A stretch of DNA of 52,500 bases from Cryomorpha ignava (GTDB taxonomy: Bacteria > Bacteroidota > Bacteroidia > Flavobacteriales_D > Cryomorphaceae). The DNA is taken from NCBI RefSeq assembly GCF_010686655.1, contig NZ_JAAGVY010000005.1, forward strand, positions 1 to 52,500, in the 5' to 3' direction. The translations under genes and the position numbers were made by a program. Of the stretch, positions 36,013 to 49,995 are shown piece by piece. Position 1 is the stretch's first letter. Each line of letters begins with the position of its first letter. The notes beneath the pieces are model-generated. The model was not told the DNA's origin. It saw only the letters and a list, made by a program, of their open reading frames with translations, and did no database searches.

Positions 36013-37557
36013 ATGGACGAGAATTCGCAATCACAAACCGATACACGCAGAGCTAAACGCAACAATTTACCCATTCAAAACAATGAGATGGGCAAAATCC
36101 CCCCTCAGGCAGGCGATTTAGAAGAAGCAGTGCTAGGGGCTTTAATGCTAGAACGCGATGCCATAAATGATATTATTGACATTCTTAAACCGCCATCGTT
36201 TTACCGCGAAAATCATCAAAAGATTTATGCGGCCATACAGGAATTGTTTCAAAATTCACAACCCATCGACATTCTGACGGTGACAGCTGAATTGCGAAAA
36301 CGCGGCGAACTGGAGCTTGTTGGTGGTGCTTATTACATCAGCTTTTTAACAAATAGGGTGGCAAGTTCGGCAAATATTCAATTTCATGCCCGCATCATAT
36401 CGCAGAAGCATATTCTCCGCGAGCTTATTCGCATTTCGTCTACCACCATCCGCGAAGCTTACGAAGAAAGTACCGATGTATTTAATCTCTTAGACAAAGC
36501 AGAAGCTGATCTTTTTACAGTTGCGCAAGGCAATATCCGAAAGGATTTTAGCCCCTTGAGCGATGTAATTAAAGATTCTATTGAGGCCATTGAGGCCGCT
36601 CGAAAAAATAAAGACGGAGTAAGTGGTGTTCCCACAGGGTTTACATCGCTCGACCGCGTAACCTCGGGCTGGCAAAAGTCTGATATGGTGGTAATTGCCG
36701 CCCGCCCGGGTATGGGTAAAACGGCTTTTGTACTCTCTATGGCTCGAAATATGGCTGTAGATTTTAATGTGCCTGTGGCGATTTTCTCGCTCGAGATGGC
36801 TTCTGTGCAGCTGGTAAACAGGCTTATTTCTGGAGAAACAGGAATAAAAGGTGAAAAGCTGCGAAAAGGAAATCTGGAAGATCACGAATTTACCCAGTTG
36901 CACACACGAATTAAAAAATTAAGTACTGCACCTATTTATATTGATGATACACCGTCGCTTTCAGTATTTGAACTGCGGGCAAAGGCGCGTCGCCTGAAGC
37001 AAAAACACGGCATTCAGTGTATTATTATTGATTACTTGCAGCTTATGACGGCTGGTGGCGATAACCGTACCGGAAACCGCGAGCAGGAAATAAGCATGAT
37101 TTCTCGTACAATAAAAACCATTGCCAAGGAGTTAGAGATTCCCATACTTGCACTATCTCAGCTTAGTAGAGCTGTAGAAACACGTGGTGGCGATAAGAAA
37201 CCAATGCTTAGCGACTTGCGTGAATCTGGAGCGATAGAGCAGGATGCAGACATCGTGTCTTTTATTTATCGACCTGAATATTACGACATTACACAAGACG
37301 AAGATGGTAATTCTACCCAAGGGGTTGGACAAATCATAATCGCTAAACACCGTAATGGAGCTTTAGATACAGTTTCCTTGAAATTTGTGAAAGAATTTGC
37401 GAAATTTGAGAATCTGGAAATGGCGTACGGCGAGCCGGGCAGTTTAGACAGTGGAGGTGGGTTTGATCAGTTTCAAACCATCACTATGCAATCGCGAATG
37501 AATGACAATGACAATGATTTTTTCAATAAAGAAAAAGATGACGACGCTCCTTTCTAA
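36013..37557 (+). CDS. dnaB: Replicative DNA helicase DnaB
   Basis: The 514-residue hexameric helicase unwinds DNA at the replication fork. The N-terminal domain shows PPQAGDLEEAVLGALMLE, typical of DnaB (about residues 30-47). The RecA-like C-terminal domain has GFTSLDRVTSGWQKSDMVVI, Walker A ARPGMGKTAF (about 232-241), Walker B CIIIDYLQLM (near 335), and SQLSRAVETR followed by DLRESGAIEQDADIV. No intein is present. The C-terminus is acidic (NDNDNDFFNKEKDDDAPF). Its end overlaps the next gene by 20 nt. Confidence 0.96.
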   Translation: MDENSQSQTDTRRAKRNNLPIQNNEMGKIPPQAGDLEEAVLGALMLERDAINDIIDILKPPSFYRENHQKIYAAIQELFQNSQPIDILTVTAELRKRGELELVGGAYYISFLTNRVASSANIQFHARIISQKHILRELIRISSTTIREAYEESTDVFNLLDKAEADLFTVAQGNIRKDFSPLSDVIKDSIEAIEAARKNKDGVSGVPTGFTSLDRVTSGWQKSDMVVIAARPGMGKTAFVLSMARNMAVDFNVPVAIFSLEMASVQLVNRLISGETGIKGEKLRKGNLEDHEFTQLHTRIKKLSTAPIYIDDTPSLSVFELRAKARRLKQKHGIQCIIIDYLQLMTAGGDNRTGNREQEISMISRTIKTIAKELEIPILALSQLSRAVETRGGDKKPMLSDLRESGAIEQDADIVSFIYRPEYYDITQDEDGNSTQGVGQIIIAKHRNGALDTVSLKFVKEFAKFENLEMAYGEPGSLDSGGGFDQFQTITMQSRMNDNDNDFFNKEKDDDAPF

Positions 37558-38821
37558 GATTGGAGTCCATGCATTTTTAGTAATCTGTTTGCTTGGTTTA
37601 TCGGGTTCTGCCTTTTCGGCAAAAATTCTAATACCTATGGACGACACTCAGTCAAACCATCTAAAGGCTTATGGAATAACCTATTGGGTATTAGAAAATA
37701 ATATTGAGGTGCAATGGCTGCTCAACTATCGCGGCGGTAGCTTTATGATGGACGAATATAAGACCATTGTAGAAGAATGTGTTATCCGCGGAGTTACCTA
37801 TCAGGTGATTGCAGATGTGCAGGCGGCGGGAATAATTCGCGATATTGCTGATCCCGAAGTAAATATGGAAACGGTGAAATTAGAAAAAGCGCCTAAAATC
37901 GCGGTTTATTCACCAAAATCTCAAATGCCCTGGGATGATGCAGTAACGCTAGTAATGGAATATGCCGAAATACCTTATGAAGTTATTTACGACCGAGAAA
38001 TAATCAATATGGAATTGCCAAAATATGACTGGCTTCACCTCCACCACGAAGATTTTACGGGACAATACGGCAAATTTTACCGCAGTTATAAAAATGCAGC
38101 CTGGTATCAGCAACAAGTGCGCGATGCCGAAACCGAAGCAGCAGAAATGGGTTTTGCAAAAGTATCGCAGTTAAAACTGGCAGTTGCTCAAAAAATAAAA
38201 GAATACACTGCCGGAGGCGGCTTTCTTTTTACAATGTGCTCTGGCACCGATACATATGACATAGCCCTTTCGGCACAGAATACAGATATTTGTGAAAGCA
38301 TGTATGACGGTGATCCGGCAGATGGAGCAGCACAATCAAAACTTGACTTTGATCAAACATTTGCTTTTCAGAATTTCGTTCTCGAAATGGATCCGCTGGT
38401 TTATGAGTTTTCTTCTATCGATGCTACAGACATTCACACCAAAACACAGCAAACGCAAGACTTTTTTACCCTATTTGATTTCTCTGCCAAGTGGGACGTT
38501 GTTCCAACTATGCTTACCCAGAGCCACCTATCTGTAATTAAAGGCTTTATGGGTCAAACAACAGCATTCAAAAAGCAGTACATTAAAAGTGATGTACTTG
38601 TAATGGGTGAAAGCAAAGCACAGGGCAGCGTTAAATATATTCATGGATCATTCGGAAAAGGACAATGGACTTTTTATGCAGGCCACGATCCGGAAGATTA
38701 CCAACACCGCGTAGGCGATCCGCCAACAGATCTCAATTTGCACCCAAATAGTGCAGGTTATAGATTGATATTGAATAATATTCTATTTCCTGCGGCTAAG
38801 AAAAAGAAGCAGAAGACATAA
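37538..38821 (+). CDS. Secreted protein of the family often labelled 'asparagine synthetase B'
   Basis: About 427 residues from ATG 37538 (MTTLLSKIGVHAFLV), giving a clean signal peptide ending SGSAFSA; longer in-frame starts lie deeper in dnaB. The mature protein begins KILIPMDDTQSNHLKAYG. I recall this family sitting after dnaB in flavobacteria under the name asparagine synthetase B. I see no Cys2 glutaminase start and no PP-loop SGGxDS motif, so that name is probably wrong. Motifs include WLHLHHEDFTGQYG and HGSFGKGQWTFYAGHDPEDYQH, which resemble glutamine-amidotransferase-like or ThuA-like folds. Function unknown; periplasmic location likely. Confidence 0.75.
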   Translation: MTTLLSKIGVHAFLVICLLGLSGSAFSAKILIPMDDTQSNHLKAYGITYWVLENNIEVQWLLNYRGGSFMMDEYKTIVEECVIRGVTYQVIADVQAAGIIRDIADPEVNMETVKLEKAPKIAVYSPKSQMPWDDAVTLVMEYAEIPYEVIYDREIINMELPKYDWLHLHHEDFTGQYGKFYRSYKNAAWYQQQVRDAETEAAEMGFAKVSQLKLAVAQKIKEYTAGGGFLFTMCSGTDTYDIALSAQNTDICESMYDGDPADGAAQSKLDFDQTFAFQNFVLEMDPLVYEFSSIDATDIHTKTQQTQDFFTLFDFSAKWDVVPTMLTQSHLSVIKGFMGQTTAFKKQYIKSDVLVMGESKAQGSVKYIHGSFGKGQWTFYAGHDPEDYQHRVGDPPTDLNLHPNSAGYRLILNNILFPAAKKKKQKT

Positions 38822-39876: not shown

Positions 39877-40476
39877 TCAGAACGAATAACAAAAATTAGA
39901 ATCCTTGATTCTATAATCAAAACGACCTGAATAGACAGTATGGTTAAGACCATTGGATTTAATATCGAAACCAAAAGTACCTGAAACGATTAGCGACTCT
40001 AGACCAGGTTTAGAGATCACATCGCGTATATATAACTTGCCTACCCCATATCTTAGCGTGTCTGGAGACTCACTATCAAGTATAAGCATGCCATAATTCG
40101 ATACTCCGTCTAGATTAATCACTGTATCTCTTAATTCTAAAAGTTGATTTTTATATCGAATGGATAAATCTCCCAGAAAAAAACCGACATCACGCTTCTG
40201 TAAATCATCTTCAATAATCTGAAAACCGTTTGATACTAGTATTCGGGTTCCGACAGAATCCGGATTGGTACAAATCGTAAAATGGGGTTCATAACTTACC
40301 GTCGAACGGCTGGCTAGCCAGGAGTATCCGTCAATATATGCTCCCGCAGTATTCGTACCATCGGCAGAAAATGCTGGCAACCGCGGATCAAGCGGACTGG
40401 CTTCGTAAGGAATATCTCTACAAGCCATTAAAGTGGAAAGCCCAATTAAAACGAATATCCAGCGCATTATTTCCAT
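39877..40476 (-). CDS. Lipoprotein B of a duplicated barrel-lipoprotein pair
   Basis: The 199-residue lipoprotein has lipobox STLMAC at about residues 14-19. The likelier start is the internal ATG at 40467 (MRWIFVLIGL), which overlaps the preceding stop as TAATG. Its mature part carries DPRLPAFSADGTNTAGAYI, then DGYSW, and near the end GTFGF and YSGRFDYRI. The same marks appear in the lipoprotein at 41122-41733, so the two are paralogs. The G(A/T)NTAG-x-x-I-plus-W motif is common in small Bacteroidota lipoproteins of unknown role. It follows a beta-barrel gene and ends the four-gene operon. Confidence 0.8.
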   Translation of the reverse strand: MEIMRWIFVLIGLSTLMACRDIPYEASPLDPRLPAFSADGTNTAGAYIDGYSWLASRSTVSYEPHFTICTNPDSVGTRILVSNGFQIIEDDLQKRDVGFFLGDLSIRYKNQLLELRDTVINLDGVSNYGMLILDSESPDTLRYGVGKLYIRDVISKPGLESLIVSGTFGFDIKSNGLNHTVYSGRFDYRIKDSNFCYSF

Positions 40477-41102
40477 CGGTTAAAAAATTGATATCGTAAA
40501 AAAACCTCGGCTGTATTAGCTCGAATGTCTTTTACCTTTGGTTGTAAATCACCATAATCACCGATTAACTGGTATTCGAGCATATTTACAAACCAAAAGT
40601 CAAATCGGGCTCCCAGAACCCAAGATTTGGTAAGATAATAATGACAACCAATAAAAACTCCATAATCGGATTCTCGAAAACCTTCGCCTTCAACAATATA
40701 TTCACCATTCATTCTAATTTCCGGAAAATAAGTTGCGGCTACAACTCCGGTTGTTAGATTCCACTTTTCCGAAATTGAGTAATTTGTTAGCAATCTCAAA
40801 TCTAAACCCCGAAATATGTACTTGTAATCTGCTTCGTCATATTTTTGATAAAAATTGCGATGAAAAGAGTTCAGCTCTGCGCCAATCTCAAATTTACTTT
40901 TTTGATTGGCAAAAATCATAACACCAAGTCCAAAAGTTAAATCGGGGTTTACATCTACCAGGTCTAAAGGTTTATGATGGTTATAAATGCTATACTGCAG
41001 ATTTCCCTGGAAATACATTTGGCCGAACAAAACATTTGAAAAGAAAACGGATTCAAAGACCATTAAAAATACAATTCCACAATATTTAAAGCATTTACTC
41101 AT
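40467..41102 (-). CDS. Outer-membrane beta-barrel protein B of the duplicated pair
   Basis: The 211-residue protein has a signal peptide (YCGIVFLMVFESVFFSNVLFGQ) and then alternating amphipathic beta-strands (FEIGAELNSFHRNFY, LRLLTNYSISEKWNL, VFLRYQFFNRW), as in eight- to ten-strand outer-membrane barrels. It matches the barrel at 41730-42392 strand for strand: PDLTFGLGVMIFANQ here, PEMGVGLSFYINDKQ there. It lies 19 nt after lipoprotein A and overlaps lipoprotein B. Function unknown. Confidence 0.78.
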   Translation of the reverse strand: MSKCFKYCGIVFLMVFESVFFSNVLFGQMYFQGNLQYSIYNHHKPLDLVDVNPDLTFGLGVMIFANQKSKFEIGAELNSFHRNFYQKYDEADYKYIFRGLDLRLLTNYSISEKWNLTTGVVAATYFPEIRMNGEYIVEGEGFRESDYGVFIGCHYYLTKSWVLGARFDFWFVNMLEYQLIGDYGDLQPKVKDIRANTAEVFLRYQFFNRWK

Positions 41103-41121
41103 ACCGTCATTCTGTATAAAG

Positions 41122-41733
41122 TCAATTTAATGAAATAAAATTCACTTGGGTCACATCGTAGTCGAATCGGCCGTAAAATACATCATACCTACCGCAATCG
41201 TTGCTGGCCGAAAACCCGAATGTGCCAGCAAATGCTTTATGATCAGAACCATCAGACCTGAAAAAAACTTTACCGGTTTGAACGGTTTCTGCTTCGCTGC
41301 AGGCTAAAAGACTCACTCCATCGGTAATTAAATCGGCCGAAACTGAGGTGCCATCAATGGGGAGTTCCGAACCAATCAACGCTCTAAGACTCCCTAAATT
41401 TCTAATCTGCTTGGAAGGAAGTCGTAGAACAACGCTCAATGATTCGAGATCTTCAAAACCCGGTGAATAATATCCCCCGCTGAAACGCAATTCTGAATAG
41501 TTTAGCAAGCTATCGCAGGCTACAGTGAGCCCATCACAACTTGTCCATGAAGGAAATAAGCCAAAATAACACGGATCAAACCAGACTTTTTCGTTGATAA
41601 CGCACCCAGCAGTATTAGCGCCTTGCTCGGTATAGCGAGGAAGCCGGGGATCTGCAATATCCCTTTCAGAATAATCGCAAGAAACCAATATGCAAACTAT
41701 AAATGCTAATAATGTTGCGAATATATTCCTCAT
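41122..41733 (-). CDS. Lipoprotein A of the duplicated barrel-lipoprotein pair
   Basis: The 203-residue lipoprotein has signal FATLLAFIVCILVSC with the lipidated Cys at about residue 19. The mature start DYSERDIADPRLPRYTEQG, followed by ANTAGCVINEKVW, parallels DPRLP...NTAG...W in lipoprotein B, as does the closing GTFGF...FYGRFDYDV. It has extra cysteines (CYFG, SCDG, ACDS, ACSE) absent from B. Its ATG overlaps the barrel A stop by 4 nt, implying coupled translation. Function unknown. Confidence 0.8.
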   Translation of the reverse strand: MRNIFATLLAFIVCILVSCDYSERDIADPRLPRYTEQGANTAGCVINEKVWFDPCYFGLFPSWTSCDGLTVACDSLLNYSELRFSGGYYSPGFEDLESLSVVLRLPSKQIRNLGSLRALIGSELPIDGTSVSADLITDGVSLLACSEAETVQTGKVFFRSDGSDHKAFAGTFGFSASNDCGRYDVFYGRFDYDVTQVNFISLN

Positions 41734-42392
41734 ACCTTATTCCTTCTATAAAGTTTAACTCTCAAAAACAATTCTGGCGTGAATGCATTGAGCAAATGTT
41801 GCTTTCCATCCATTTCGCCAAATTTGCCAACAGCCTTAACCTTTACCATAGGAATTAGACCCAAACTGGTTCTAAAACCTATAAATAATGACTCATAAAT
41901 CTGATAATTAACGCCGGCAATCAAGTTTAAATCCACCGACTTGCTCTGATCTCCTAAAAGCTTGATTACCCCATTTTCAAAAAGAAAGGTTTGGTAGAAG
42001 TACACTCCAATACCGGCTTCGCCACTACATTTTTGAGAAAACGGATACTCAGCAAGGCCGTTAAGCTGTAATCCCCACGCGCGAAATTGAAATTCAGTCT
42101 GTGGAAAGGTAGTATTGTAATTTCGGCCCGAATACTTAAATTCAGACTTGATCTTCCAATTTTGCTTGTCATTAATATAAAAACTAAGCCCTACACCCAT
42201 TTCCGGAGAAAGTATACTCTTGCCAACCTGAATGTCACCCTTTCGAAGAAATACAGTGTATGAACCACCTACATTGAGATATACATCGGCCAATTGTGCG
42301 TTCGTAAATTTAGGAATAAAAAAAACGCTTGTGGCGAGCAGAATCCAACAAACCACATACGCAGCTTTAATTCGAAGAAAAAATGAAGGCAT
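41730..42392 (-). CDS. Outer-membrane beta-barrel protein A of the duplicated pair
   Basis: The 220-residue protein has a signal peptide (VCWILLATSVFFIPKFTNAQ) and about eight amphipathic strands (YLNVGGSYTVFLRKG, WKIKSEFKYSGRNYN, WGLQLNGLAEYPF, LFIGFRTSLG, LFLRVKLYR). It is the first gene of the operon. No exact -7 box was found upstream; TACGAATTT-like sequence lies near 42430. It is a paralog of barrel B, and likely works with lipoprotein A, whose start overlaps its stop (inference). Confidence 0.78.
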   Translation of the reverse strand: MPSFFLRIKAAYVVCWILLATSVFFIPKFTNAQLADVYLNVGGSYTVFLRKGDIQVGKSILSPEMGVGLSFYINDKQNWKIKSEFKYSGRNYNTTFPQTEFQFRAWGLQLNGLAEYPFSQKCSGEAGIGVYFYQTFLFENGVIKLLGDQSKSVDLNLIAGVNYQIYESLFIGFRTSLGLIPMVKVKAVGKFGEMDGKQHLLNAFTPELFLRVKLYRRNKV

Positions 42393-42743
42393 CGCTCAAG
42401 AAATTTTGGTTGAAATTCTACAAATTTCGTATGGAAATTCGTAAAACAAACTCGTCTATCGAAAACAAGATAAGAATAAATGTTCTAACTCACTTCAATA
42501 AGTTATTTTGAATGCTTCGATTCCTAATCCACGTCTATGTTTATTTTTTCGTTTGGTTCTTAATTTGATGATCCAGATTAGTGTCACTAAAACGAACGTC
42601 GAAATACAACTAAACAATATAAGTCATTAAGCTAAATCACAAAGAAGAAATTAGGTATTTCAAACTCTAAATTCAGTATTGACGCAACTTTGCATTATAT
42701 TTGCCGCTTTTATAGGCGGTTCAAAATCATTGAATAGATACCC
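42393..42743. other. Divergent intergenic region
   Basis: About 350 bases between barrel A (leftward) and the sulfotransferase-like gene (rightward). TATATTTG at 42696-42703 is a rightward -7 box. Directly after it, CCGC-ttttata-GGCGG (near 42704-42719) can form a small hairpin at the start of the transcript. No gene or RNA is seen in the rest. Confidence 0.5.
42696..42703 (+). promoter_or_regulatory. -7 box TATATTTG for the sulfotransferase-like gene
   Basis: TATATTTG matches TAnnTTTG, 40 nt before the ATG at 42744. The hairpin following it would form the 5' end of the mRNA. Confidence 0.55.
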
Positions 42744-43394
42744 ATGTTATATTCCAAAGAGAAATCTTTTTTGTTTATCCACATACCTAAAACAGCCGGA
42801 ACGAGCATTCGATCTGTTCTCGCCCCATATTCAGGCAAGAGCGGGGTATTAAACTATATAGGAAGAAGACTCGAAAAATATCCTGTTTTCTGTTTCAAAA
42901 CGGGATTATCTATCAAGCGAACCTATGATTCGCATACAACTTATGAGCGTTTAGAAAACATTTTACCGCAAGCAGAACTGAATAGAATATTTAAATTTTG
43001 CGTTGTGCGAAATCCATACGATCGCGCATACTCATTTTATCTGCATGTATTGAGCCATCCAACGCACAATTTGTATAAACTGATTGAATCTTATGGGAGC
43101 TTTGGAGGTATGTTGCAAAATCTTGAGGTGGTAGGAGAGCCCACTCAAAAATCGTACATCATTAATTTACAGGCTGATATTTCCGTAGACTTTATTGGCA
43201 AGTTTGAAAGTTTAAATGACGACTTTAATGCGGTTTGCAAGAAATTGGGTATACCGTATGAGCTCCCTAAGAAGAATACTCGAAAACACAAGGATTACAG
43301 AGATGCATACGATGAGCAGAACTGGAAATATATCGCTGAATATTATTCAGAAGATTTTGATGCTTTTGGGTATGATAAAGACCTACTGAAGTAA
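42744..43394 (+). CDS. Sulfotransferase family 2-like protein
   Basis: The 216-residue protein has the PAPS 5'-phosphosulfate loop FLFIHIPKTAGTSIR (His13 to Ser21 around the loop) and the 3'-phosphate motif CVVRNPYDRAYSFYLHV near residue 90, typical of the Sulfotransfer_2 family. Such enzymes transfer sulfate to sugars, lipids or proteins. The family is often found in polysaccharide loci, but here the neighbours are an outer-membrane operon and a giant secreted protein. No PAPS synthesis genes are visible in the window. Confidence 0.88.
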   Translation: MLYSKEKSFLFIHIPKTAGTSIRSVLAPYSGKSGVLNYIGRRLEKYPVFCFKTGLSIKRTYDSHTTYERLENILPQAELNRIFKFCVVRNPYDRAYSFYLHVLSHPTHNLYKLIESYGSFGGMLQNLEVVGEPTQKSYIINLQADISVDFIGKFESLNDDFNAVCKKLGIPYELPKKNTRKHKDYRDAYDEQNWKYIAEYYSEDFDAFGYDKDLLK

Positions 43395-43515: not shown

Positions 43516-46500
43516 TTATTGCTTGCTTATCTTTTCTACCCAATGATTTTCACTGGTAATGAAATGAACAAAATACAATCCGGATGATAGGTCAGCTATA
43601 TCTATTTCAATTCTAGAATCGGTGTTTACATTTGTGACATCTTTTCTGAATACCGGTCTATTGTTAATATCCCTAATTTCAACGATCATACCTTCCACGA
43701 TCTCAATCTGCGAAACGATATTAAAAATCCGGCGTGTCGGATTAGGATATATCGATAGAGGCGATTCTGAAATGAGCGGAAACGTTTTACACACCAGTTC
43801 ATAACAATACATTCCATTGTCATCAAATCTGTGAACTGTAGCGCAAACTAGAGATGACCAAGTATGTATGATCGGTGCACCACCATTTGAATATTGAGGA
43901 GGTCCACTTGCAAAATTCCATTCCACAAAATCGCAACCCTGAAAATACTCATGATCTGTTAATTGGAAAGTGTATAGATTTGGAATGGAGTTATCCTGAG
44001 TGCTTGTTATTCCATTATTCAAATGGTCAAAGAATTCCGACTCACATAAACATTCTAAATCTACTTCACATTCTGGAAGCACAATGCAATAGTGGAAACT
44101 ACAGCAGGTCAAATGATTTCCTTGTTCAGATTCATCATGCAGGGTAACAGTAAAGCATATAGTGTCACCAGGCAGAGCGAGAGTGTTATCAATTGTGAAA
44201 TTGAAAAATGGATAAACACCTAAGGAGGGAATTCCACCAGTCAAAAGAAATTGCCCAGAACTGCCATTTACTATTTCGTCATCGAAGGTTATTGCAACTA
44301 AATCGACTGGATGACCAGACATGTTCTTTAAAGATGCCGAAAATCCCCACATATCACCCGGAAGGCAGGAAACATTGGTATCAAATAGGTATCCACAATC
44401 AGGCTCACAAAATAGTGATATGGTGTCTCTACAATAAACTGTATCATCTTTCATCCATTTTACTTCCACCAAATGATCGGGTCCGAATTCGCTTGATACG
44501 CAAATTTTAGGTAATTGAAATAAACCAATATCAAGACTGCCATCAGTTGGTATGAAACTAACAGAAGTATTTGTTAGATTTTGAGTAAACCAGCCAGAAT
44601 TTGGTGGGTTGTCAACATTCAATGTTGTATTTGGAGATACCGTACAAACCGATATTTCATCAAAAAAGTCATCATCAAAGTCATTGTAAATATGAACATT
44701 ATAACAACAATCTTCTCCCGGGACTGGGCATAAACTCTCGATTCCAACTAAAGCGCAAGGATCACAGATTGGTATTTCTACACAGTAGATTGTGTCTAGT
44801 GAACAGCACAAAGTGGTTGGAATAGAGTCGGGATTAAACTCATGTGTGAGTATGTTGTAACAAAAGGTTCCACCCGCAATGTTATCACCGGACAGAGCAA
44901 TCGTAAATGTTTGACAAGAACCTGGGAGGATCGGTGTTCCAGAACTGTTTAAGTCTATGTTCGGAGGTGTCAAATTTACGCCTGTTGGAGTGAGCACCTC
45001 AAAAATGATATAACCTACGGCAAACTCACCGTTGTGAGGATTGCATATTGTAATATCGTACAATACCTCTTGGTCATGATTACAATAGATACTGTCGCTT
45101 TGCAGATAAGTACAATCTGGTTCCACCGGACAGTCGAAAATCAACGTATCTGAGCAGACTATCTCTCCGGCAAAGTCATACCAATCGATTATTACATTTT
45201 GTGGACTAGCATTCACCTCTCCAAAGCAGAATTCAATGAAATCTGGAATGGCACTTGGAATGAGGTCTCCATTATTAATACTCGCTAGGCTTATAAAATT
45301 GGCATTCGATCCAGTAGCTTGCAATTGAGGATTAATTGAGCTGAGATCAAAAATCATTTCGGCATCAGAACTATGGATTTTCATACTTATAATGTCAAAT
45401 AAATTTCCAGTATAGCTTAAAGAAGCGCAACAACTATTTACCAATCCATCTGTGCTATTTAAGAGATCGGATGACACAATGAGTTTTTCACATGTCGCTG
45501 AATCACAATTCAGGATATCTAGAATAAGTGCACCGGAAGTATCAGCGCATCCAAAATCTGTTGAACCAACTAAATTGTATGTTCCAGAAACTAAGGCTTC
45601 AACACAATGTTCCATGCCTGTTATTCCTGCAATAGGTGCACCATTAAACAACCACTGATATGAGGCCAATCCTATAGGGCCACAGATAGTGTCAGGACAC
45701 AACTCATAACAACCCACCGGAACCAGACATAAATTTGGTAATGGATGAATAGTAACGGAGGCGGCGTGGGAGCAACCTGAAGAGGTATTCGTTCCAATAG
45801 CAGTATATGTTCCGGCCTGAAACACAATAATGGATTCACCGGATTGTCCGGTAGACCAATTGTAATGAACGCCTTGTTGAGGTGGGTTTACTGATAATGT
45901 GATTGGTTTTCCTTCGCATGCATCCGGAGAAATATCAACTACAAAATTGGGTGAAGGTTCGACCACAACATCTATTGGATCTGAGGTGTCGCTGCATCCA
46001 TCTACATCGGTAATTGTGAGCGTATATGGGTTGTTAATATTACCTTGACAAACCTGAAAGGTAGAAGATGTTCCTATTGTCGTATTTGAACCATCCTTCC
46101 AGGAATAACTAGGCGCAAACTGCGAAATAAGAGTTGTACAGCCTCCATCACATATAATAGGATTTCCAGTTATGATAGCAACCGGGGCAGGATAAACAGA
46201 TATTGTAACTTCATCCAGTTCCCTGGAACAATCATTAGCGTCAGTAATTATTACAGAATACGTTCCTGCTTGTGATACATCAATTGTCTGCGAATCATCC
46301 AAGGTATTCCACAGATAACTGTATCCGGCAGGGGCGGTGAGTGTTAGTGTGTCTCCTTCACATATTACAGTATCGCCCGGAACAATGGCAAGTCCATCTG
46401 GGATGCCCGGATTTACAATAATGCTTATTGTACCTGAGTCGGTGCATCCGTTTGCATCTGTAACAGTCAGAATAACGGAATAAGTTCCATCTAAAATATA

Positions 46501-49500
46501 TGAGTGAATAGGACTGGTGCCAGAAAATGTCGCTCCATCACCAAAATCCCATAACCATTCCACTGCTCCGGGAGCATCTGTTGAAAAGGTTATCGCATCA
46601 CCTACGCATGGCGGATCAGGTATCGAACTTGCGGTGATTGAATTAATGTTTATTGATCCGATTTCAATAATTTTGGTGATTGTTGCCTTGCAGCCATCAG
46701 CGTTTGTAACTTCTAAGGTCACACTATGCGATCCTGGAACAAATTTTACTTTGGGATTCTGATCTGATGAAAAGAAAGTTTGTGGGGGATTCTGATTCAG
46801 TGAGTACGTCCAATTCCATGACACAATTGGGTCATCGATATAAGTAGAAAAATCTGTGAACTGAACAGAGTCACATCCTATATATTCGAATGCGAAGTCA
46901 GCCGCTACCGGAACGCAAATTGAAGTATCACGCCCGACTGAACAGAATCCACCTATACTGTCGTTTCTCGGCACCAAGGCATTGAGAACGACATAATAAC
47001 ATCCCGCTTTATTATAATGATGCGTTGGATTTTGAATATTGGAATTAGTTTGGTCTCCAAATGACCAGGAACCCATGCTAGCATTGAATAAGTGAACATC
47101 AAATATGTAGTCATTACAGTATGGAGAATCAGGATAGCTTGAAGTTATGACTACTGAATTTGAATCCACTGGACATGGAGCTGTAGTTCCAATACAAGAA
47201 TCTTGAACTACATAAATGGTGTTAGATGTGTTTATACATCCAGTCTGGGTATCTAATACATCAACCTTGTAAGCGAAAGTGTGTTCAACATTTGTATTTG
47301 GGTGCAGTAAATTAGCGGTGGTACTAAAGGGTCCTTGATCACTTCCATCACAAAACCATTGAAATTCATAACTATCGTTTTGAGCAACAATATTTACAGA
47401 ACCACCCCCATCTATGCATAAGTGGGGATTATCGCCAGTAGAAATATTTGCAACTGGACCAGGCACTTCGCTTGCTTTGAAATAAGCCGTGGCGCTGCAA
47501 CCATTGTTATCAATAGTTGTAACCGAATAATTTCCGGCTGTGCTTATTGACGCTGTATTACTAGTACTTGGTGGAATTGGAGTATTCCACAAATAGGTGT
47601 CAAATCCTGTCGCGGTTTCTAAAACTGCCGTCACACCCGGACATAAATTTCCATTTTGGGTGATCACGGGTTTAATCGGACTAAAGAGGGTTTGAGCTAC
47701 AGAATCAGTTACAATATTTCCACAAACTTCCACTTCAACTTTCACATATTTTATACCTGGGCTATTGTTCCATTGCACTTGAACCTCATCCGTTCCCTGA
47801 CCAGATATGATACTTCCGTCAGTGATTCCATTAATGGACCAGGTTATATTGGCATCATCAATTTGAGCGGGAGTCAGCGTATAGGTAGCAATGGTATTGG
47901 TACAATTCGCATTGCCGGTAATAACCAAAGGCCCATTGACAGATTTTTCAACAATGTTCAAACTTATGGGATCAGAAGAACACCCAGGTTCTTCAAGAAG
48001 ATATTGGTACACGGACACACTACCCGCCCCGGCCCATGTTACAAGGATTGAATTTGAATTTGAGAATGTGGGGGTACCCCCGGTCACGTTCCAAATATAC
48101 CCAACTCCCGTTTCCGATGAAGTCACCGTATATAACACTTGGTCATTAGCACAGATGCTATCAGGGCCTTCAATGGTGAGCGGGGGTGGTAATTCGATCA
48201 CCTTAAATATTTTGGTCTGCACATTGTTACAGTATACGGACGGATCATTAGGCGTGGCTGTTAAGGTATAAGTGCCAGTCCCACCGTCCCAAGTAATAGA
48301 CATATTATTCACATCTAACGTGGCGGTTGCGGGGGTAATTGTCCACGAATAGTCTGACGAAGGTGAACTCGTTGCGCTAAATAAAGAAGTTGAGCCAACG
48401 CAGACTACAGTTTCTTGCGTAAACAATTCAAAATAGGGTTTCACCTGAACCATCAGATCAGCAACTCCAGAGCACTCTGTGCCAGAGTGGTTCGCTGTTC
48501 CATTTAGAAACTCACTGGTGTATTCAACATGAATGGAAGAAATAACAGCTACCGTCCAGTTGATATTAATTTGATGCATTCCTTGACCGGTAAATGGTAC
48601 AGGATCACCAAAGATATCAAGCACAGTCCACGTATATTCGGCCGATATCCATTTTGGTACAGAATAGACATGCGTGGAATTAAGACATACCTCTGAAGGT
48701 CCGTCGATATTAGAAACGGATGGAATAATTGGTACAGTAACTTCAGTCGGATCAGTACAATATGTATCATCACATCCTGTAACAGCCAGTGATACTATGC
48801 CATCGAAGCCGCCACTCCAAAACACACATATAGTATCGTTATAACTGTCCTGTCCATAAAAGTTAAATGGTATTACATCACCATTGGTATTTGTAACCGA
48901 CCAAGTATAGGAAGAGCAGTGACTGGCATCCGTCCAATATTTAGAGCTATCTCCCTGGCAGAGGGTTGAGATCCAGTAGATATTTGGCCCAGGCAAAGAA
49001 TCGACTATCACATCCATACTTATAGAATCCGTACAGCAGCAGAGTTGATTTCCGTCTAAGTCGTAATTTAACTTAGTTGCGTACAGGGTAACCGTATGCG
49101 TGCCGGGAGATGTAAATTCATGCGTTGGATTCATATCAGATGACAATGGAGTATTATCGCCAAAGTCCCAAACATATTGGTCAGAATTGGATGAGAAGTT
49201 TGTGAAACTCATTGGATTGCCTAAGCATACATAACCGTCAGACGAAAAATTGGCTGTTGGTCCCAACATAATGGTTACGCAGAGAGAAATGGTTTCCATT
49301 CCGTTGATTGTAAGTTCTACATTTCCCGTTCCTGCTGAACCCCATAGTACATTAATTTCCGCTGCATTAGCGCCTAATGACAATGTTCCACCATCAACGT
49401 CCCAATTATAAGAATTGTTGGAATTATAGGGTACATAGAAGGTGGTATTGGAAGAATCACAGACACTTACACATGATGGAATTGGATCGCTAGGATTTCC

Positions 49501-49995
49501 TTCGTCACCTTGAAAGTCTTCTAAATTAATCAGGGAGCAATCGGGTTTTGGGCATTTTACAACTATTGTAACCGTAGCCATAGAAATTTCGCCAAATTGG
49601 GAGTAGGCCTCGTAGTTGAAAATATGAGTGCCGCAACATGGAGGAGCGTCAGGGTCAGTATAATATACATTACCTATTTCATCAATGTAAAAACACGCAT
49701 CTCCCGGGGATTGAACGAAAATAAAGTCATCTCCAAAAAACTCATCATTATCTAATACATTCAGCATTAATGGATCACCTCCAATAACACAGAAATAATC
49801 ATCAATAGCACCATAATTAATTCCAAGGCACATGCAATCTTCAGTAACAATATCATTCACTGTTGTTGGATTACCGTCATCACAGCTTGCGCCAAAGTTG
49901 GCTAAGAGGTCTGGGCAATCATAAACTTGTGAAAATAATTGGGTTGCGAAAAAAATACCTACTATCAAGAATAGGCCAGGTGAGAACTTTTTCAT
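43516..49995 (-). CDS. Giant PKD-repeat secreted protein, T9SS type A
   Basis: The 2159-residue protein starts with a signal peptide (KFSPGLFLIVGIFFATQLFSQ). It contains many Ig/PKD-like units: clear PKD motifs are YVWDFGDNTPLSS (near residue 275), WSFGDQTNSN (near 985) and EWLWDFGDGATFSG (near 1150), with repeats of the form GSYLWNT or ISTAGNYSVT between. Cysteines are abundant. The last 80 residues are a type A T9SS sorting domain (LSIYPNPTRRIFNIV, LSSGLYFVHFI). It is likely a surface adhesin or matrix protein; no enzymatic domain was recognised. No transposon or frame break interrupts its 6.5 kb. Confidence 0.88.
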   Translation of the reverse strand: MKKFSPGLFLIVGIFFATQLFSQVYDCPDLLANFGASCDDGNPTTVNDIVTEDCMCLGINYGAIDDYFCVIGGDPLMLNVLDNDEFFGDDFIFVQSPGDACFYIDEIGNVYYTDPDAPPCCGTHIFNYEAYSQFGEISMATVTIVVKCPKPDCSLINLEDFQGDEGNPSDPIPSCVSVCDSSNTTFYVPYNSNNSYNWDVDGGTLSLGANAAEINVLWGSAGTGNVELTINGMETISLCVTIMLGPTANFSSDGYVCLGNPMSFTNFSSNSDQYVWDFGDNTPLSSDMNPTHEFTSPGTHTVTLYATKLNYDLDGNQLCCCTDSISMDVIVDSLPGPNIYWISTLCQGDSSKYWTDASHCSSYTWSVTNTNGDVIPFNFYGQDSYNDTICVFWSGGFDGIVSLAVTGCDDTYCTDPTEVTVPIIPSVSNIDGPSEVCLNSTHVYSVPKWISAEYTWTVLDIFGDPVPFTGQGMHQININWTVAVISSIHVEYTSEFLNGTANHSGTECSGVADLMVQVKPYFELFTQETVVCVGSTSLFSATSSPSSDYSWTITPATATLDVNNMSITWDGGTGTYTLTATPNDPSVYCNNVQTKIFKVIELPPPLTIEGPDSICANDQVLYTVTSSETGVGYIWNVTGGTPTFSNSNSILVTWAGAGSVSVYQYLLEEPGCSSDPISLNIVEKSVNGPLVITGNANCTNTIATYTLTPAQIDDANITWSINGITDGSIISGQGTDEVQVQWNNSPGIKYVKVEVEVCGNIVTDSVAQTLFSPIKPVITQNGNLCPGVTAVLETATGFDTYLWNTPIPPSTSNTASISTAGNYSVTTIDNNGCSATAYFKASEVPGPVANISTGDNPHLCIDGGGSVNIVAQNDSYEFQWFCDGSDQGPFSTTANLLHPNTNVEHTFAYKVDVLDTQTGCINTSNTIYVVQDSCIGTTAPCPVDSNSVVITSSYPDSPYCNDYIFDVHLFNASMGSWSFGDQTNSNIQNPTHHYNKAGCYYVVLNALVPRNDSIGGFCSVGRDTSICVPVAADFAFEYIGCDSVQFTDFSTYIDDPIVSWNWTYSLNQNPPQTFFSSDQNPKVKFVPGSHSVTLEVTNADGCKATITKIIEIGSININSITASSIPDPPCVGDAITFSTDAPGAVEWLWDFGDGATFSGTSPIHSYILDGTYSVILTVTDANGCTDSGTISIIVNPGIPDGLAIVPGDTVICEGDTLTLTAPAGYSYLWNTLDDSQTIDVSQAGTYSVIITDANDCSRELDEVTISVYPAPVAIITGNPIICDGGCTTLISQFAPSYSWKDGSNTTIGTSSTFQVCQGNINNPYTLTITDVDGCSDTSDPIDVVVEPSPNFVVDISPDACEGKPITLSVNPPQQGVHYNWSTGQSGESIIVFQAGTYTAIGTNTSSGCSHAASVTIHPLPNLCLVPVGCYELCPDTICGPIGLASYQWLFNGAPIAGITGMEHCVEALVSGTYNLVGSTDFGCADTSGALILDILNCDSATCEKLIVSSDLLNSTDGLVNSCCASLSYTGNLFDIISMKIHSSDAEMIFDLSSINPQLQATGSNANFISLASINNGDLIPSAIPDFIEFCFGEVNASPQNVIIDWYDFAGEIVCSDTLIFDCPVEPDCTYLQSDSIYCNHDQEVLYDITICNPHNGEFAVGYIIFEVLTPTGVNLTPPNIDLNSSGTPILPGSCQTFTIALSGDNIAGGTFCYNILTHEFNPDSIPTTLCCSLDTIYCVEIPICDPCALVGIESLCPVPGEDCCYNVHIYNDFDDDFFDEISVCTVSPNTTLNVDNPPNSGWFTQNLTNTSVSFIPTDGSLDIGLFQLPKICVSSEFGPDHLVEVKWMKDDTVYCRDTISLFCEPDCGYLFDTNVSCLPGDMWGFSASLKNMSGHPVDLVAITFDDEIVNGSSGQFLLTGGIPSLGVYPFFNFTIDNTLALPGDTICFTVTLHDESEQGNHLTCCSFHYCIVLPECEVDLECLCESEFFDHLNNGITSTQDNSIPNLYTFQLTDHEYFQGCDFVEWNFASGPPQYSNGGAPIIHTWSSLVCATVHRFDDNGMYCYELVCKTFPLISESPLSIYPNPTRRIFNIVSQIEIVEGMIVEIRDINNRPVFRKDVTNVNTDSRIEIDIADLSSGLYFVHFITSENHWVEKISKQ

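Follow-up and report, generated by a model that had tools for sequence, protein, structure and literature searches.

The first 52,500 nucleotides (nt) of Cryomorpha ignava contig NZ_JAAGVY010000005.1 (positions 1 to 52,500, hereafter the window) carry four genes at 39877-42392 that probably represent two copies, in tandem, of a conserved two-gene cassette of the outer membrane, in which a beta-barrel protein and its own lipoprotein form a dedicated complex. The four genes lie on the minus strand in the order barrel-A (BAR-A), lipoprotein-A (LIP-A), barrel-B (BAR-B) and lipoprotein-B (LIP-B), with overlapping ends within each pair, just as an earlier note on this DNA (the original prediction) had described them (Table 1). 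The barrels resemble each other, as had been predicted (22% identity, E 1e-17), and so do the lipoproteins (28% identity, E 3e-13), both of which contain the two motifs named at that time, DPRLP..NTAG..W and GTFGF..GRFDY. Searches of related genomes show that the two genes are passed on together in several distant bacteria, and they so very probably work as a pair. Genomes, contigs and loci are designated below by numbers preceded by G, C and L, respectively.

Distribution and gene coupling

Profiles built from the two window copies only rank the same five relatives first among 150 genomes for both genes, with E-values of 1.1e-31 to 1.4e-14 for the barrel (next match 1.3e-5) and 6.1e-33 to 6.4e-7 for the lipoprotein (next match 7.4e-5). 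With wider profiles, strong matches to the barrel (E<=5.4e-64) and to the lipoprotein (E<=6.0e-26) fall in the same 6 of the 299 genomes of the order, all of which belong to the window's family, and the next order-wide matches lie at 4.0e-10 for the barrel and 2.8e-7 for the lipoprotein. All seven cassettes of this family have one lipoprotein per barrel. The pair is rare overall, since strong lipoprotein matches in a phylum sample of 395 genomes occur only in the window's own genome (next match 8.3e-11). A further pair was found in Cognataquiflexum rubidum (Cytophagales) by one scan for related loci, and its barrel is linked to the barrel alignment with an hhalign probability of 91.7 (E 7.7e-7).

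The 245 genomes of the family to which C. rubidum belongs were searched with a lipoprotein profile consisting of six rows from the window's family and one Cytophagales row. This profile finds 27 of the 245 genomes at E<=1e-4 and 18 at E<=1e-23, the latter in 22 places. A gene of about 200 amino acids (aa) lies upstream of 21 of these 22 strong lipoproteins; the 21 upstream genes are not all independent because five of them (L167-L171) are near copies. A barrel profile made from the window's family only matches 18 of the 21 upstream genes at E<1e-4, missing one gene each of L176, L182 and L196, and matches no other open reading frame (ORF) in 30 loci at E<=10. With a retrained barrel profile, a pair-type barrel is found directly upstream and on the same strand of 28 of the 29 lipoproteins that reach E<1e-26 with pair profile A6 (window's family included), the 29th being the second lipoprotein of a barrel-lipoprotein-lipoprotein array, and upstream of none of the 12 weaker lipoprotein matches. 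One lipoprotein per barrel is seen in 20 of the 21 Cytophagales-family cassettes.

The converse search with the barrel gives matches at E<=2.4e-47 in 21 places, which fall in the same 18 of 245 genomes as the lipoprotein, followed by a drop to 7.2e-27 that is partly built in because 17 of the 21 barrels are in the profile itself and the remaining four are near duplicates of one of these. None of the 48 ORFs in the 12 next-best barrel loci matches the pair lipoprotein profile at E<=0.01, and the single match there to the wide lipoprotein family (L223_2, E 1.5e-5) is on the opposite strand.

The two genes are also closely coupled. The gap from the barrel to the next gene is <=1 nt in 28 of 28 cases; among the other same-strand junctions of these loci, 59 of 294 are as short (Fisher's test, 3e-18). 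ORF starts were taken mechanically, with the comparison set treated alike, and the longer overlaps (-17 to -44) may for this reason be shorter in reality. No third gene was seen by eye to be constant around the pair across hosts, so the pair looks self-contained.

Protein families and predicted structures

The AlphaFold2 model of BAR-A (predicted local distance difference test score, pLDDT, 77.5) has eight long strands and compares with OmpA, NspA and OmpW at Z 16.4-17.8, including Z 17.8 over 170 residues to the OmpA model and Z 17.7 over 154 residues to NspA. Judged by this model, BAR-A is an 8-stranded OmpA/OmpW-like outer-membrane barrel. BAR-A scores 29.1 bits and BAR-B 17.5 bits against PF13505 OMP_b-brl (gathering cut-off 28.7 bits), and the Pfam matches of the locus barrels belong to small-barrel families only, plus a sub-threshold match to DUF6850. 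Among 23 pair barrels, PF13568 is matched by 15, PF13505 by 10 and NF049866 by 8 at E<=0.01. A relationship to PorG of the type IX secretion system (T9SS) was set aside, as this match reaches only E 0.037, and sequence searches gave no credible solved relative of the barrels.

LIP-A scores 57.6 bits against NF052634 (Riean_0653 family; curated cut-off 57 bits) and LIP-B 49.9 bits (E 7e-13), and all 24 pair lipoproteins scanned match this family at E<=0.01. The lipobox and the GTF.F....G.FD core of the family are present in the lipoproteins (alignment A7). The original prediction knew no name for the pair; none was found for it, nor any description, among the open-licence literature matches listed, although its lipoprotein does carry this NCBI family name. 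Nine of the 24 pair lipoproteins also match DUF6252 (PF19765) at E<=0.1 (best 1e-4), with no such match for LIP-A, and DUF6252 was not found in open-licence literature. The LIP-A model shows a mostly-beta body behind a signal-peptide helix (pLDDT 72.0, predicted template modelling score 0.65). Its best structural matches are mycobacterial LpqH (Z 6.3) and two Bacteroides structural-genomics proteins (Z 5.7 and 5.2), which are too weak for the fold to be named; LpqH and other beta-meanders were rejected as the fold because they fall below the meaningful level of the tool. The LIP-A model gave no Foldseek match at E<=0.001, and sequence searches gave no credible solved relative of the lipoproteins.

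Beyond the pair, 30 of the 150 genomes searched, the window's own included, carry the NF052634 family at E<=1e-4. Of the 59 lipoproteins classed as unpaired, one has a barrel-profile match beside it, on the opposite strand, and another (L185_2) adjoins a convergent Pfam barrel on the opposite strand (PF13568, 35.5 bits) that the neighbour profile missed. The original prediction asked whether barrel and lipoprotein always co-occur and took lipoprotein homologues mostly without a barrel neighbour as evidence against itself. The pair subclade does co-occur with the barrel clade (28 of 29 with a barrel), whereas the wide family mostly occurs without a barrel (2 of 59 with one, on the opposite strand).

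In the window's own genome, NF052634 has 10 matches at E<1e-4, of which the window contains two. The lipoproteins on C24 and C47 adjoin secreted proteins that resemble alpha/beta-hydrolases, a similarity that exceeds the Pfam cut-off in the C47 protein and stays below it in the C24 protein; those on C43 and C63 adjoin shorter secreted proteins, some with a similar N-terminus, and none of these neighbours matches the barrel profile. These unpaired lipoproteins lie near contig ends (L011 5065-7303 on C24, L012 2657-7477 on C47, L013 57-2243 on C63 and L014 363-5462 on C43) and are flanked by copies and N-terminal fragments of about 100 aa of large secreted proteins. The arrangement looks like a repeatedly duplicated locus, perhaps of a hydrolase with a cognate lipoprotein. 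Proteins adjoining NF052634 lipoproteins of other Bacteroidota have, by eye, a similar 'TGLLYDR / TTGFLLDYG' N-terminus (Table 1); Pfam matches of hydrolase type occur in L063 and L120, the latter also with a T9SS sorting domain. With proteins of this type, the lipoprotein family may have a second conserved partnership. In Riemerella columbina, L115 3825-6171 carries four tandem NF052634-type lipoproteins and no barrel. The one experimental hint found for the wide family concerns its type gene, Riean_0653, which came out of a transposon screen in Riemerella anatipestifer: insertions in the gene reduce haemolysis, which returns on complementation, but the recombinant protein has no haemolytic activity of its own, according to the available excerpts of PMC7881567. 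This phenotype should not be carried over to the pair, because the R. columbina relatives are not barrel-paired.

Descent of the two genes

In the lipoprotein tree, a 99/98 branch separates all 24 pair rows, together with L185_2 and L186_2, from 57 others. Unpaired rows were kept if they had 150-235 aa and E<1e-10, which gave 59 rows including L185_2 and L186_2. These two fall beside or inside the pair clade and are counted with it in the tether statistics below; they may be borderline members, given the generic convergent barrel of the first and the upstream 210-aa gene of the second, which has no Pfam match. The barrel tree likewise has the 23 pair barrels on one side of a 99/98 branch and 10 generic barrels, a set of 10 ORFs from 12 loci, on the other side. 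Alignments A8/A9 and the trees built from them do not include the truncated lipoprotein of G007 (151 aa, L082/L116) or the barrel paired with it, the close copies L167-L170 are represented by L171 in these alignments and the second G762 lipoprotein (L175extra) was left out of the paired-tree comparison.

Several cassettes take the same position in the two trees, as does the second G841 cassette beside the two G754 cassettes (99/96 and 100/100) and one G762 cassette beside the G816 cassette (98/94 and 92/86); G755 likewise groups with G764 and G692, and G005 with G002. Because members of this lipoprotein subclade and of this barrel subclade were found with each other and not separately, the two proteins are inferred to make up a dedicated outer-membrane complex in a 1:1 ratio.

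Clade-specific residues and export signal

The tether between the lipidated Cys and Gly43 measures 25.4 +/- 1.0 residues in 26 pair-clade lipoproteins versus 21.7 +/- 3.8 in 57 others (Levene's test, 2.6e-5). The tether columns of the pair clade are Phe or Tyr at 22 (25/26), Asp25 (25/26), Pro29 (24/26) and Tyr or Phe at 34 (25/26). The top clade-specific barrel columns are Tyr185 in strand 7 and Asp/Glu200 in strand 8 (21/23 each), and four of the top five such columns lie within strand 7, loop 4 and strand 8. BAR-B has Tyr and Asp at columns 185 and 200. By the usual topology of 8-stranded barrels, strands 7 and 8 flank an extracellular loop. As sequence features, the tether and strand 7-8 residues are leads for a possible interface, not proof of one.

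The residues that follow the lipidated Cys are C-DYSER in LIP-A, C-RDIPY in LIP-B and C-IVDDE in G004. The lipoprotein export signal of Bacteroidetes is acidic, with K-(D/E)2 and SDDDD given in the available excerpts of PMC5080379, and neither LIP-A nor LIP-B fits this published consensus. Within the window's family, pair lipoproteins have 1.71 acidic residues at +2 to +6 (n 7) versus 3.08 in unpaired paralogues (n 25; p 0.005). Over all family members, the values are 1.63 (n 8) versus 2.09 (n 65; p 0.35). An acidic pair at +3/+4 or +4/+5 is present in 2 of 7 pair versus 18 of 25 unpaired lipoproteins in the window's family (p 0.07) and in 2 of 8 versus 28 of 65 over all members (p 0.46). An earlier and cruder lipobox rule, which missed 15 of 78 lipoboxes, gave p 0.78 for the acidic count and p 0.16 for the strict motif. 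The acidic-signal difference is not main evidence, because it is absent over all family members.

Proposed mechanism and alternatives

In the proposed mechanism, which takes the pair as an obligate unit of two outer-membrane proteins, the barrel would be translated first and its own lipoprotein next by coupled translation, and the two would assemble in the membrane as a dedicated 1:1 complex. Somewhat more tentatively, the aromatic and proline-rich tether behind the lipid anchor may dock close to loop 4 and strands 7-8 of the barrel, and once docked it would hold the beta-rich lipoprotein body at the membrane. An 8-stranded barrel has no transport-sized lumen, and the pair may therefore be a small binding or scaffold unit without a pore, not a transporter, which is again a weaker part of the proposal. 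Of the original prediction that each barrel works with its own lipoprotein, the pairing as such draws support from the adjacency and order of the genes, which hold in two Bacteroidota classes, from the presence of strong matches to both in the same genomes and from the several cassettes that are placed alike in both trees; it does not extend to the broad homologues, which mostly lack a barrel.

A number of observations weigh against a dedicated complex. Some generic barrel is present at E<=1e-5 in 226 of the 245 Cytophagales-family genomes, and the E-values of the retrained and wider barrel profiles are flattering because some of the counted barrels were in the training sets. Neither gene has a strong match in G003 or G006 of the window's family. 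The barrel tree joins G001 with G004 (91/77), at odds with the lipoprotein tree, and the first G841 barrel groups with G811 (98/96), which its lipoprotein does not. The window's own proteins depart from the clade-specific residues, with Ser in LIP-A at aromatic column 22 (Tyr is at 21), Ser in LIP-B at column 25 where 25 of 26 have Asp, and Val185 and Leu200 in BAR-A instead of Tyr and Asp/Glu. The tether also holds the family-wide residues P32 and G38, the outer and inner strand halves of the barrel are equally conserved (p 0.88) and the LIP-A model is weak (pLDDT 72, best Z 6.3).

The co-variation that the original prediction had proposed to look for is present and modest. Over 23 pairs, the distances correlate with r 0.38 (Spearman 0.21), a value reached in 1 of 10,000 permutations, and an exchange of partners inside the same genome made r smaller in only one of the four genomes so treated, so the correlation fits shared descent and is no proof of co-adaptation. 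A seven-pair co-divergence (r 0.78, equalled in 80 of 5040 permutations; r 0.81 when Cognataquiflexum is left out, equalled in 36 of 720) was set aside, as it seems to rest on one close pair with 55% identity.

Conserved adjacency may reflect regulation alone, and the foremost alternative, though an unlikely one, is that the two genes are only co-expressed, with both proteins in the outer membrane and serving one process without contact. Adjacency and overlap show co-expression and not contact, the co-variation is not specific to the partner in three of the four within-genome swaps and NF052634 lipoproteins elsewhere manage without a barrel. Against co-expression alone, the partners are two specific subclades of common families that are found together, and with no third constant gene seen by eye, the two genes would have to be the whole process by themselves.

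The next alternative, also considered unlikely, is that the barrel carries or displays the lipoprotein at the cell surface as OmpA does with RcsF, the tether running along or through the barrel in place of an export signal. Here the fixed tether length, the clade-specific barrel residues near loop 4 and the lower number of acidic residues in the pair lipoproteins of the window's family would fit, and there is a precedent in RcsF with outer-membrane proteins (available excerpts of PMC4942254 and PMC7553776). The acidic difference, however, was sought after the fact and vanishes over all members, and the acidic pair is not significantly rarer. A more specific and still more doubtful form of this proposal is a private surface-display device, in which a minimal barrel carries or fixes its cognate lipoprotein via the tether without an acidic export signal; if true, this would be a dedicated and genetically linked counterpart of RcsF-OmpA in Bacteroidota.

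It is improbable that the lipoprotein serves the barrel as a plug or as an assembly factor in the periplasmic leaflet, in the way LptE serves LptD. This would agree with the single lipoprotein for each barrel (20 of the 21 cassettes in the Cytophagales family, 7 of 7 in the window's family), with translation of the barrel first and with the lack of an acidic pair at the export-signal position in 5 of the 7 pair lipoproteins of the window's family; yet OmpA-type 8-stranded barrels are folded by the general beta-barrel assembly machinery without private helpers, and the lipoprotein family is widespread without barrels.

The original prediction called the arrangement a tandem duplication, and the copies are indeed side by side and homologous. 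They are, however, about as divergent as copies of different genera, and the lipoprotein tree groups LIP-A with G001 (98/87) and LIP-B with G004 (99/98), while the barrel tree leaves the relationship of BAR-A and BAR-B without resolution. On this lipoprotein evidence, the two cassettes of the window look like old paralogues, because LIP-A and LIP-B group with different genomes. A recent local duplication without lasting meaning, which the side-by-side copies and the doublings in G841 and G762 might suggest, is very improbable with 22-34% identity between copies and these lipoprotein groupings.

Locus features and neighbouring genes

With the spacing listed in Table 1, all four genes could be carried on a single transcript. 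A regular-expression search for the Bacteroidota promoter consensus upstream of BAR-A (42393-42743) found none. A phage origin was rejected, as there was no PHROGs match at E<=0.1, and plasmid carriage was rejected from a search with LIP-B only, the barrel not having been searched, that gave no plasmid match.

Table 1. Positions of the features discussed. Positions without a locus name refer to the window.
Feature	Position	Strand	Basis
BAR-A, 220 aa, apparent signal peptide and predicted 8-stranded outer-membrane beta-barrel	41730..42392	-	ORF list, PF13505, AlphaFold2, structure comparison
LIP-A, 203 aa, lipobox LVSC	41122..41733	-	ORF list, NF052634, model
BAR-B, 211 aa	40467..41102	-	ORF list, homology to BAR-A
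LIP-B, 199 aa, lipobox LMAC	39877..40476	-	ORF list, homology to LIP-A
BAR-A/LIP-A junction, 4-nt stop-start overlap, ATGA	41730..41733	-	Sequence
BAR-B/LIP-B junction, 10-nt overlap; TAATG stop-start if the second Met is used	40467..40476	-	Sequence
19-nt spacer separating the two cassettes	41103..41121	-	Sequence, ORF list
LIP-A tether, lipidated Cys19 to Gly43	41605..41679	-	Fixed-length segment of pair clade
LIP-B tether, lipidated Cys19 to Gly45	40342..40422	-	Fixed-length segment of pair clade
BAR-A strand 7, loop 4 and strand 8, residues 169-216	41745..41888	-	Model and clade-specific columns
Flanking 100-aa and 249-257-aa genes	L180 518-820, 2118-2891; L182 714-1463, 2794-3096; L176 2775-3077 with L195 615-1388		By eye
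'TGLLYDR / TTGFLLDYG' proteins	L063 1029-4946; L120 6581-9634; L119 2879-3217; L190 1-1485; L192 1-1266		By eye

In the window's family, the same gene of 437-438 aa adjoins the pair in G001, G004 and G007, and one gene of T9SS-tailed type lies between the two in the window and G002. A helicase gene read as dnaB (by eye, without a family search) follows the 437-438 aa gene in G000, G001, G004 and G007. In G002, the end of the contig truncates the 437-aa gene, and in G005 the contig stops directly behind the pair. In the window, 36013-38821 holds a gene read by eye as a DnaB-type helicase followed by a 439-aa secreted protein ('ILIPMDD...'), whose true start may be later since the listed start overlaps the end of the helicase gene by 56 nt; these two genes are neighbours of the pair in the window's family. 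On the other side, a sulfotransferase-family gene (42744-43394, PF03567) adjoins the gene for a 2159-aa secreted protein (43516-49995) with PKD-like repeats and a T9SS-like C-terminus, as read by eye without a family search.

Doubled or extended arrays occur elsewhere in L176/L195 (G841), L175 (G762) and L186 (G768), where the types are barrel-lipoprotein-barrel-lipoprotein, barrel-lipoprotein-lipoprotein and several lipoproteins. In G811, G754 and G841, the pair is flanked by what seem by eye to be the same 100-aa and 249-257-aa genes, a second conserved neighbourhood (Table 1).

Comparison with known systems

Partnerships between barrels and lipoproteins are central to outer-membrane biology, and complexes of the two are a known kind. 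To our knowledge, the known dedicated partnerships involve large barrels (transporters, LptD and BamA). The pair described here, for which the open-licence literature matches listed hold no description, consists strictly of two genes and has an 8-stranded barrel at its core; several genomes carry paralogous cassettes of it, and the lipoprotein superfamily also has members free of barrels. It could serve as a small natural system for how a lipoprotein gains a barrel partner and how orientation is set, and it would also offer a functional handle on a lipoprotein family that so far is only the 'Riean_0653 family'.

With the small barrels of PF13505, PF13568 and NF049866, the pair barrels share the OmpA/NspA/OmpW fold, but they form their own clade apart from the 10 generic barrels; against NF049866 (TDE1717 family), BAR-A scores 14.2 bits relative to a cut-off of 135 bits and BAR-B has no match. 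Similarly, the pair lipoproteins share the lipobox, the G..N..G motif and the GTF.F and G.FD core with the NF052634 family and differ from it by their own clade, the fixed [FY]..DP.DPRLP.Y.E.G tether and the upstream barrel gene.

SusCD of Bacteroidetes consists of a barrel and a surface lipoprotein in a stable complex, and the BtuB and SusC barrels are large TonB-dependent transporters. The pair lacks a large TonB-dependent barrel with a plug, since BAR-A has 220 aa, eight strands and matches to small-barrel Pfam families only. BtuB-BtuG is likewise a stable complex of a barrel and a surface lipoprotein in the available excerpts of PMC10404256.

In the RcsF systems, RcsF and its barrels are encoded by separate genes, and one RcsF lipoprotein uses several barrels. 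Like the proposed complex, RcsF-OmpA and RcsF-porin of Escherichia coli have the N-terminal part of the lipoprotein held by the barrel (available excerpts of PMC4942254), and OmpA is also 8-stranded. Unlike in these systems, each barrel here has its own adjoining lipoprotein gene.

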